Shown: positions 46,796-56,003 of the stretch, one piece after another | Layout of the letters: every line of letters starts with the position of its first letter | Position numbering within the stretch: the first letter of the stretch is position 1 | Assembly: GCA_021794075.1 (NCBI GenBank) | Contig: JAJYRM010000001.1 | Location: 42,861 to 106,860 of the forward strand | DNA: 64,000 nucleotides | Direction of reading: 5' to 3' | Source of the DNA: Bacteroidota bacterium | Lineage (GTDB): Bacteria > Bacteroidota > Ignavibacteria > Kryptoniales > JAKASW01 | Translations under genes and position numbers: made by a program | Notes under the pieces: model-generated | Databases searched by the model: none | What the model saw: only the letters and a program-made list of their open reading frames with translations | What the model was told of the DNA's origin: nothing

Positions 46796-47017
46796 AAAAT
46801 CTCAAGCTACAAATACCAAGTTCCAAACAAATTCAAACAACAAAATCTCAAACGGCCCTTAAGCTGCAGCAGATTTTTTCGATTTGCAGGACATTGGGGC
46901 CTGGAACTTGGCTTTTGTTTGTTATTTGTGAGTTGGAGGTTGGAGTTTAAACTCTGCTTGGAACTTGTAGGTTGGAATTTGGAATTTGGTCTTTCGTTTG
47001 AGTTTGGAGCTTAACAG
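46796..47017. repeat. Low-complexity imperfect palindrome R1 (ymdB-folD spacer)
   Basis: The left arm begins right after the ymdB stop (tgaaaaatctcaagc) and reads accaagttccaaacaaattc. The right arm reads ggaacttggcttttgtttg, then further degenerate ttggaattt/gtttggagctt words. The centre has nested complementary pieces (ggccc...ggggcc and ctgca...tgcag). The whole spacer could fold into a long imperfect hairpin. The right arm ends tttggagcttaacag just before the folD ATG, so it also provides folD's GGAG. Related to the repeats at 47894, 48275 and 55850. Confidence 0.75.
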
Positions 47018-48274
47018 ATGACGGGAATACTAATAGACGGCAAATCGGTTTCACAGGAGATCCGAGCCGAAGTAAAAGAGCTCACCGTGAAGCTGAATCA
47101 GGAAAGCGGCGTCACGCCCGGGCTCGCGTTCATACTTGTAGGTAACAATCCGGCGTCGGAGGTCTACGTCAGGAACAAGGCGAAGGCTTGCGAGTCGCTC
47201 GGCTTCTACCACGTCACCGAAAAGATGACGGAAGACGTTTCGCAGCAGAAGGTCATCGACAAGGTCGTGGAATTCAATAACGATGAGCGCGTACACGGCA
47301 TACTAGTACAGATGCCGCTTCCAAAGCATATCAACGAGTACGACGTCATCGAATCGATCGCTCCGTCAAAAGACGTCGACGCGCTTCACCCCTTCAACAT
47401 CGGACTTTACTCCGAGGCGAAGTCATGGAAGGAAATAATGGACAAGCGCCTTCTCCTTCCCTGCACGCCGTACGGGATGATGGTGCTCCTCGAGAAATAT
47501 GGAATCGCAGTCGAGGGAAAGAAGGCTGTTGTCGTCGGGAGGTCAAACCTAGGAGGCAAACCCACCGCCGCGCTTCTTCTCTCCAAGAACGCGACCGTGA
47601 CGATCGCGCACTCGCGCACCCAGGATTTGAAAGAGGTCTGTCGCGACGCGGACATACTTGTCGCGGTCATAGGCAAAGCGAACTTCATCGGGAAAGATTT
47701 TATAAAGCCGGGCGCTGCGGTGCTCGACGTCGGCATTAACCGAACCGACGCCGGACTCGTCGGCGACGTCGATTTCGAAGCGGCAAAGGATGTTGCAGGC
47801 TGGATCACCCCGGTGCCGGGCGGAGTCGGAGCGATGACAATTTCCATGCTGATGATGAACACTTATATGGCCGCTGCGAGAAACGACGGCGGGAAAAGCT
47901 CCAAACAAGTCCCAACAACAAGTAATCAAAAAGATAAACCCTTTGATCTGGGACAGCGTTCCTTACTGTATGCGCAGAATGTCATCAAATTCCTGAGTAC
48001 AATTCCCAAGACTCCCGCTAACGTAGAGAATTCGAAGCAGTTGATCAGATGCTCGGGAGCAGTCGGGGCAAATTATATTGAGGCCAACGATTCTCTTGGG
48101 AAGGAAGATTTTTTGATGAGATTGAGAATAGCAAGGAAAGAGGCAAAGGAGTCACGATACTGGCTGGATCTCCTTGAATGTCCGGACTCTCTAAACAATG
48201 AACGGACGAGCCTGGCAGATGAATCGACTGAATTACTAAAAATATTGTCTGCAATGATTCAGAAAGCGGAGTGA
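47018..48274 (+). CDS. folD: FolD fused to a four-helix-bundle (S23/IVS-type) protein
   Basis: 418 residues. Residues 1-290 are a complete bifunctional methylene-THF dehydrogenase/methenyl-THF cyclohydrolase: catalytic Lys in YVRNKAKACESLGF, PLPKHI, VVVGRSNLGGKPTAALL for NADP, and TPVPGGVGAMT near the usual end. A polar linker (about 291-307) follows, then a complete four-helix-bundle protein of the S23/TIGR02436 type (about 308-418) with KQLIRCSGAVGANYIEA, KEDFLMRLRIARKEAKESRYWL and an amphipathic last helix. S23 proteins are normally free-standing or encoded in 23S rRNA intervening sequences. The linker DNA is a left arm of the local repeat family, so the fusion arose by element insertion at the 3' end of folD. 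Confidence 0.9.
   Translation: MTGILIDGKSVSQEIRAEVKELTVKLNQESGVTPGLAFILVGNNPASEVYVRNKAKACESLGFYHVTEKMTEDVSQQKVIDKVVEFNNDERVHGILVQMPLPKHINEYDVIESIAPSKDVDALHPFNIGLYSEAKSWKEIMDKRLLLPCTPYGMMVLLEKYGIAVEGKKAVVVGRSNLGGKPTAALLLSKNATVTIAHSRTQDLKEVCRDADILVAVIGKANFIGKDFIKPGAAVLDVGINRTDAGLVGDVDFEAAKDVAGWITPVPGGVGAMTISMLMMNTYMAAARNDGGKSSKQVPTTSNQKDKPFDLGQRSLLYAQNVIKFLSTIPKTPANVENSKQLIRCSGAVGANYIEANDSLGKEDFLMRLRIARKEAKESRYWLDLLECPDSLNNERTSLADESTELLKILSAMIQKAE
47894..47922 (+). repeat. Left arm of the S23 cassette (R2), inside the FolD linker
   Basis: aaagctccaaacaagtcccaac lies in frame within the FolD-S23 linker. Its reverse complement aligns with cttgttagttggaacttggagcttg at 48351-48375 with two small indels and one or two mismatches. 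The two arms therefore bracket the S23 coding region as inverted repeats. It belongs to the same word family as the left arms at 46796 and 55850. Confidence 0.7.
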
Positions 48275-48407
48275 GCTTATAACTGGAATGGATCTGTCGT
48301 TTGAAAAAGAATTGGAGCTTTGCTGTTTGAAGTTATCTTCTTGTTTGGAACTTGTTAGTTGGAACTTGGAGCTTGCGGCTTGTCGGTTGGAGCTTGGAGC
48401 TTAGTAC
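48275..48407 (+). repeat. Right arm of the S23 cassette (R2)
   Basis: After the fusion stop codon the spacer is a string of degenerate ttggaacttgg/ttggagctt words. The best inverted match to the left arm is 48351-48375. It ends ttggagcttagtac directly before the TTG start of the sigma factor gene, supplying a GGAG at 8-base spacing, and holds an in-frame TAG two codons upstream of that TTG. Confidence 0.7.
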
Positions 48408-48984: not shown

Positions 48985-49235
48985 AAGTTTGGATTTTCTG
49001 GTCGCCAGATATGAAACCCTAAACCCGAAACTCTAAGTTCGAAACAAATCCGAATGAAAAGAACTCAGAATAAAAAACAGGTGGTCGGGACAGTTCGGGC
49101 ATTTCCTCGTCAGCGGAAGGAAGAGATAAAATGTGCAACTATTTCTCTTCCGCTAAATAGTCCCGTGAAGCCGGATGGGAAATTAGAATTTAGGGTTTGT
49201 TTAGAGTTTAGTATTTAGAATTTAGGATTTATCAG
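48985..49235 (+). repeat. Nested palindromic element R3 (sigma/anti-sigma spacer)
   Basis: An extended nested hairpin. Outer degenerate arms are aaaccctaaacccgaaactctaag and gaatttagggtttgtttagagtttag. The middle pair is cgggac (49086-49091)/gtcccg (49160-49165). The inner stem is agcggaag (49112-49119)/cttccgct (49147-49154), with a further seven partly paired bases toward an 11-nt loop. No ORF is inside. It ends aatttaggatttatcag before the TTG of the anti-sigma gene, again with an AGGA at 8-base spacing. It is the largest ORF-less copy in the region. Confidence 0.7.
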
Positions 49236-49796: not shown

Positions 49797-49945
49797 GTCT
49801 GGAAACTTGACCAAATTCGAAATATGAAATTCTAAACTCTAAACAAGCTCTAAGCGCAAAACTCGAAACCCAAAGCTTGGTTTTCCGAATTTTAGATTTC
49901 GGTCATTGTTTAGAGTTTAGTGATTAGAACCTAGAGTTTACGCCA
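49797..49945 (+). repeat. Palindromic element R4 with a perfect 15-bp inverted repeat
   Basis: ctaaactctaaacaa (49832-49846) and ttgtttagagtttag (49906-49920) are exact reverse complements. Flanking A/T-rich words extend the pairing (ttcgaaatatgaaatt / gattagaacctagagttt). The centre contains aaacc-caaagctt-ggttt. No ORF is inside. Same word set as R3. It lies between the DUF2892 gene and the disulfide oxidoreductase gene. Confidence 0.8.
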
Positions 49946-55849: not shown

Positions 55850-56003
55850 AATTCCTCCTTTCAGTCGGAAATTCCAAACTTCAATCCTCAAGCTCCAAAC
55901 AGTGCTTAAGCTTCAACGAATAAATAAAAACACCTGTCCAATTTGTATCAATTCATTTTGTCAGTTCTTGTTTGGAACTTGGCAGTTGGTATTTTGAGCT
56001 TTT
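55850..56003 (-). repeat. Palindromic element R6 (valS-yajQ spacer)
   Basis: On the minus strand the left arm begins right after the valS stop (TGAAAAAGCTCAAAATACC) and continues GCCAAGTTCCAAACAAGAAC. The right arm reads CACTGTTTGGAGCTTGAGG then AAGTTTGGAATTTCC. The left arm closely matches R1, including its position immediately after a TGAAAAA stop context. No ORF is inside. The yajQ Shine-Dalgarno sequence follows just beyond the right arm. Confidence 0.75.

Follow-up and report, generated by a model that had tools for sequence, protein, structure and literature searches.

The folD gene of the window (the whole stretch of DNA analysed here, 64,000 nt) continues in frame into an S23 four-helix-bundle domain, and according to our analysis the S23 part of this fusion very probably represents a copy, resident at folD, of a compact cassette (~470 nt) which is horizontally mobile and is exchanged as a unit. 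Such a cassette would consist of a left arm of five heptads that runs up to the S23 start codon, the S23 gene, and an inverted right arm of five heptads. It would have inserted at or beside the original folD stop codon, the left arm being read through in frame and the S23 start codon being lost, to give a FolD-linker-S23 protein. Two versions of the cassette, with C-letter or T-letter arms and each with its own S23 subfamily, would swap as units at the same site in different species.

The fusion frame at folD and its arms

A complete FolD (residues 1-290) followed without a stop by an S23 protein was the starting claim of the original prediction, and it is borne out by a single open frame at 47018-48274 (+), 418 aa, read as one protein; the fusion lies between folD and the sigma-factor gene, and no Rfam match was found in the window. 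Both FolD Pfam domains are present, THF_DHG_CYH at residues 6-121 (3e-41) and THF_DHG_CYH_C at 141-288 (3e-61), and the fold matches solved FolD structures with a TM of 0.9. The 23S_rRNA_IVP profile (PF05635) at 313-411 (6.8e-13) scores 49 bits, above its cut-off of 33.8, and TIGR02436 scores 68 bits on the S23 domain alone against a cut-off of 24. AlphaFold2 predicts the FolD fold, a linker at 291-307 with pLDDT <50 and four S23 helices at 311-417 with pLDDT 92-98; S23 was predicted as a monomer, and its nearest solved chain is 2rld, from an entry with 5 chains. The features of the fusion, and of four further elements of the window which have the same kind of ends and no S23 gene, are given below (in the heptad-arm scoring the shuffled expectation is 0.6 matches of at least 14 per window).

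47018..47887 (+): FolD domain, residues 1-290 (Pfam PF00763 and PF02882; FolD fold match, TM 0.9)
47888..47941 (+): linker, residues 291-308, disordered, holding the truncated left arm (pLDDT <50 for 291-307; alignment with five other fusions)
47896..47909 (+): left arm remnant, heptad AAGCTCC and core AAACAAG, in frame (repeat comparison)
47942..48274 (+): S23 / 23S_rRNA_IVP / TIGR02436 four-helix-bundle domain, residues 309-418, and stop (profiles, AlphaFold2, purifying selection)
48340..~48409 (-): right arm, heptads AAGCTCC AAGTTCC AACTAAC AAGTTCC AAACAAG and more heptads outward (score 17/18 at 48340-48374)
46797..47001: S23-less inverted heptad element upstream of folD, C type, the fusion cassette's letter; arms 46797-46831 (+) and 46914-46948 / 46953-46987 (-)
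49014..49230: S23-less inverted heptad element after the sigma-factor gene, mixed T/G type; arms 49014-49048 (+) and 49196-49230 (-), score 18 each
49813..49939: S23-less inverted heptad element, mostly T type; arms 49813-49847 (+) and 49905-49939 (-)
55869..56001: S23-less inverted heptad element, C type; arms 55869-55903 (+) and 55967-56001 (-)

The repeat arm noticed earlier in the linker, with its reverse complement after the stop, is real: the word AAGCTCCAAACAAG at 47896-47909 finds its complement at 48340-48353 in 13/14 nt, and the two words are the inner parts of longer heptad arrays. In the window the left arm is down to one heptad and the core, and in five sister species all five heptads lie within the frame; compared with these five other fusions the window linker lacks three heptads, that is 21 nt or 7 codons, so the frame is kept. 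From FolD codon 284 to residue 342, which lies inside S23, no ATG, GTG or TTG occurs in frame, and the same is true of G008, G010 and G003 from the FolD C-terminus to well inside S23, so that S23 helix 1, and with it the S23 protein at folD, would be produced solely within the fusion polypeptide, barring a rarer start codon. Between pairs of fused S23 domains synonymous change is near saturation against nonsynonymous change of 0.11-0.19 within a type, and by this measure the domain is kept as a protein under purifying selection. Frame errors are unlikely to lie behind the fusion, since it is open in six genomes with such near-saturated synonymous change.

Twelve congeneric folD loci were compared, and the fusion, intact in 6/12, wrecked in 2/12 and absent in 4/12, is not present in all relatives.

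folD-S23 intact: G000 (this genome), G002, G003, G006, G008, G010
folD-S23 wrecked or remnant: G009, G001
folD without S23: G004, G005, G007, G011

Unfused FolD has 290-295 codons and the cassette begins at that point, in agreement with the earlier suggestion that the 3' end of folD received a cassette bounded by inverted repeats, which is read in frame. In G004 and G011 (loci L046 and L047) there is no S23 cassette after folD, yet another degenerate inverted array (CCACAAAGGCGGGGAGGCACAG...) lies in that gap.

The fusion arms are of C type, by the letter of the heptad, in G000, G006 and G008 and of T type in G002, G003, G010 and the G009 remnant, and the S23-less element upstream of folD matches the letter of the fusion cassette in all of these genomes. 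In T-type fusions the final letter of heptad 2 is G in place of T, and an in-frame TAA is thereby lost. The last letter of the core at folD also tends to differ, AAACAAG in the C type and AAACAAA in the T type. All seven FolD-fused S23 domains form one clade in a same-class tree and their monophyly, unsupported in a wider tree, survives an AU test (p 0.287), so that from these trees one capture and two captures of the C- and T-type cassettes at folD cannot be told apart.

Dispersal of the cassette and its probable exchange at folD

When the fused S23 domain was scanned against 84,980 species genomes, 80 relatives were obtained from ~20 phyla, and both arms, anchored on AAACAA, are present in 68 of 79. 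Each end consists of five heptads, four of the form AARYNCK and one AAACAAA, and the ends lie ~470 nt apart. Past the fifth heptad the information content per position drops from ~1 to 0.1 bit, sequence homology ends at the outer heptad, and shuffled sequences seldom attain the cassette-arm score. From the core to the S23 HMM start there are 27 nt in most relatives, with an in-frame ATG 6 nt past the left core in 33 loci. The relatives lie between protein genes; the upstream gene is co-directional with S23 in 63/71 loci (background 74%), and its stop stands at a median of 74 nt before the S23 HMM start, which is consistent with a possible expression of S23 from the upstream transcript.

Cassettes L209, from a Chloroflexota/Chloroflexi MAG, and L264, from a Thermodesulfobacteriota MAG, are 87% identical over 470 nt with unrelated flanks, and the pairs L212/L216 (83%) and L217/L227 (81%) likewise have the cassette in common and nothing beyond it. 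On the S23 tree the phyla are mixed with one another, with 33 changes where 19 would be the minimum. The mobility which had been raised as a possibility is thus well supported: the sharp ends and cross-phylum occurrence show the bare cassette to be dispersed and, as judged from the shared cassettes with unrelated flanks and the intermixed phyla, horizontally mobile.

Inside the ~470 nt there is only S23, with no transposase, reverse transcriptase or recombinase ORF. Terminal inverted repeats with sharp ends, as in a DNA transposon or insertion sequence, are present; a target-site duplication was not found, direct flanking words measuring 2.23 nt against 2.04 nt for swapped flanks, and old copies could have lost it. 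Among the loci compared no movement of the cassette within one strain was observed. A viral or plasmid vector was considered and rejected, as the IMG/VR viral contig scan gave no confirmed relative and there is no PHROG match, and the 20 plasmid records with S23 relatives, mostly cyanobacterial, are all at most ~41% identical. Other S23 loci with long N-terminal frames contain no second Pfam domain, so among them no further host-gene fusion was found. The free-standing S23 closest in identity (60%) to the domain of the window, L188 from Ignavibacteriae fen_1299, is interrupted by a stop codon in helix 1 and looks like a decaying copy.

The case for exchange at folD itself comes from two contigs, G006:C59 and G002:C73, which are ~98-99% identical over the ymdB, folD, sigma and anti-sigma genes and have different cassettes at both intergenic sites, with S23 domains ~50% identical and both in frame. 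The divergence is pS 0.05 for FolD versus 0.85 for S23, and the S23-less neighbour element has switched letter together with the fusion cassette. At the level of assembled contigs, different cassettes are shown to occupy near-identical folD loci. The case relies on one 5,997-nt MAG contig, G006:C59 (locus L178), which, given its 6-kb size and the only 71-74% identity of G006 and G002 at another locus, may be misbinned or chimeric, perhaps coming from a relative of G002; the two-haplotype comparison stands even if the contig is misbinned, unless it is chimeric.

Mosaic recombination is common in bacteria, and the swap at folD could be plain homologous recombination at the flanking genes with the cassette as a passive cargo, a reading which concerns the swap only, is compatible with a mobile cassette, and which we consider rather unlikely but deserving of attention. 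The first exchange patch does reach ~200 nt into the 3' end of ymdB. However, three of the four patch edges are found ~50 nt or less from a cassette, the one in ymdB being the exception; the folD body between the two replaced patches is nearly identical and both patches change letter jointly. Recombination at flanking genes also leaves the bare cassettes in unrelated contexts across phyla unexplained.

Repeat words and the letter shared by two arms

Inverted arrays with a period of 7 surround S23 genes in general. Over 100 S23 loci of the same class, the upstream and downstream flanks of a locus match each other as inverted repeats with a median score of 21 against 13 for swapped flanks (p 9e-41); 66/100 loci lie above the 95th percentile of swapped flanks, and a score of at least 19 is reached by 66% of S23 loci against 6.7% of 345 control genes. 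Autocorrelation in S23 flanks has maxima at 7, 14 and 21 nt that genes lack, and the upstream arm is purine-rich in 55/66 loci. The window genome, a 4.53-Mb MAG 99.8% complete, has 11 S23 matches, and the flanks of S23 genes elsewhere in it also contain inverted repeats, so that the lack of such flanks, which would have spoken against the original prediction, is not observed; every S23 locus has its own repeat word. The arms of other S23 subfamilies in this genome, at L001, L002, L003, L004, L006 and L007, have a period of 7/8 too, but their words are quite unlike these (GGAACACGGAACA, AGTGACAAAGTAACAG, GGATTGATGG, GATTTCGGATTGCG). Beside membrane-fusion-protein and ABC transporter genes, S23 is found in L001, L025, L062 and L073 and, with differing repeat words, in L028, L035 and L020; this site, present in several congeners, is a candidate for another cassette exchange site. 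In L137 (G030:C1:20000-39999) several successive intergenic gaps contain inverted arrays of the degenerate word CGCAGATTTTCGCAGATTAATCG, and no S23 gene was noticed there.

At 56 non-redundant loci the letter at heptad position 7, which at a locus is G, T, C or A, agrees between the two arms of a locus at 0.741 against 0.311 in permuted arms (z 9.5), and positions 3, 4 and 5 are at permutation level (z 1.1, 1.3 and 0.4). A replicate on 29 independent Bacteroidota loci, 15 of them with both arms, gives z 5.3 for position 7 and 1.1, 0.6 and 0.6 for positions 3-5. Agreement at position 6 is weaker (z 3.1 in the 56 loci and 2.9 in the replicate) and probably comes from alternative phasing. On the S23 tree the letter changes 12 times versus 35 when shuffled (minimum 28), and as the letter tracks S23 phylogeny we infer that a factor, most simply S23, reads CKAA units. 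Associations of particular S23 residues with the letter (columns R/I, D/I and S/A) were rejected as phylogenetically confounded, with only 1-5 independent pairs.

Inverted repeats are known to homogenise, and the arms here are tandem and degenerate arrays whose letter is common to the S23-less neighbour too, so the arms could have become alike through slippage, template switching or gene conversion from one inverted tandem array to the other, without S23 recognising them. We regard this as improbable, since copying would equalise all seven positions and position 7 alone clearly agrees, left and right arms keep distinct consensus heptads at equal rank (AAtatCg is mainly on the right), and the letter follows S23 phylogeny. 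Mismatches of the G.U kind show no excess over A.C (204 vs 196; strict 69 vs 83) and the variable heptad positions are uncoordinated between arms, which argues against whole-arm conversion as well as against a maintained RNA stem.

The same two observations bear on the rival reading as an IVS-like RNA element, in which the arms would pair in the transcript, RNase III would cut the stem and the S23 piece would leave the folD mRNA. It shares the protein family with IVS ORFs and a similar size (the Coxiella 23S rRNA IVS, which holds an S23 ORF, has 428 nt and a 28-bp terminal stem, PMC4990558), and the consensus arms are roughly complementary. Beyond the symmetrical mismatches and the uncoordinated arms, just 14 nt of the left arm is left in the window, and the S23 frame is fused to FolD and under purifying selection, which makes this mechanism very doubtful. 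A conserved RNA stem at the cassette ends was rejected on the mismatch symmetry and the uncoordinated arms; the pattern suits a putative factor, perhaps S23, reading the CKAA units. What survives of the prediction is a cassette with inverted ends that captured a reading frame; the stem analogy does not, as the arms are not kept complementary, clearly agree in only one heptad letter, and stand between protein genes and not in rRNA. Insertion into a 23S rRNA helix and a maintained terminal stem, two features that define an IVS, both fail here, and we do not call the cassette an IVS. An ordinary old fusion, vertically inherited and surrounded by chance repeats, is hardly credible even though the FolD-fused S23 domains fall into well-supported groups and one clade of the same-class tree, given the absent and wrecked congeneric copies, the five-heptad left arm inside the frame of five other fusions and the two S23 types at 98-99% identical loci.

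Relation to known systems and meaning

In horizontal regulatory transfer, or regulatory switching, non-homologous intergenic segments are replaced between near-identical flanking genes; the segment here differs in being a defined cassette that includes part of a coding sequence. The S23-less inverted-repeat elements, 130-220 nt long, intergenic and multi-copy in the genus, resemble MITEs and RUP/BOX/ERIC-type repeats, but their ends are degenerate heptad arrays with a fixed letter varying by locus, their partner element carries S23 and not a transposase, and no target duplication was found. Intergenic 7-nt arrays are also known as the TAACTGA repeats of Beggiatoaceae (PMC4679880), where S23 is unmentioned and, unlike here, one fixed heptamer is repeated in direct orientation. 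The nearest kind of element is the 23S rRNA IVS of Coxiella and Leptospira (PMC4990558), with its S23-family ORF, ~430-470 nt and terminal inverted repeats of ~28-35 nt, for which a mobile-element or transposition origin was suggested by earlier authors cited there; our cassette, in contrast, lies between protein genes in many phyla with no rRNA target, has ends of five heptads with a shared letter and no maintained RNA stem, and can be read in one frame with an enzyme of the host. The accessory protein Avd of diversity-generating retroelements belongs to a homologous four-helix-bundle family (PMC10053308), and the relation proposed earlier holds for the protein family only: the cassette holds S23 alone, and no RVT_1 reverse transcriptase was found in the window genome (99.8% complete, 11 S23 places) or in G001, G005, G007, G008 and G010. 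Dependence on a reverse transcriptase was rejected on these six genomes. No description of the cassette, repeat words included, was found in the literature searched, preprints and most subscription journals being outside the search; the near relatives of the cassette between genes in ~20 phyla point to a widespread kind of mobile element undescribed in that literature.

It would be logical to suggest that S23 itself recognises the CKAA units and may help the cassette to move or to be maintained, and that the S23-less elements may be non-autonomous derivatives of the S23 cassette. An attractive, if hypothetical, arrangement is a pentameric S23 ring of the 2GSC/Avd type that would hold five units of 7 nt. 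We propose, tentatively and with slightly more doubt than conviction, that S23/TIGR02436 is the sole gene of widespread transposase-free mobile cassettes, whose S23 oligomer would recognise its own ends by a one-letter address (CKAA) on five 7-nt units per end; the letters would be compatibility groups, the S23-less elements would follow a letter-matched S23, and the FolD fusion would be a domesticated or hitch-hiking copy.

In environmental genomes many genes are annotated, with no further explanation, as "four helix bundle protein" (TIGR02436/PF05635), and the heptad ends offer these proteins a concrete candidate nucleic-acid partner and a testable one-letter specificity code. They also provide a setting for the long-standing suggestion that S23 acts as a mobility factor in rRNA IVS. 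The fusion, in its turn, shows how a putative mobile cassette can join an essential enzyme, folD, without breaking it.
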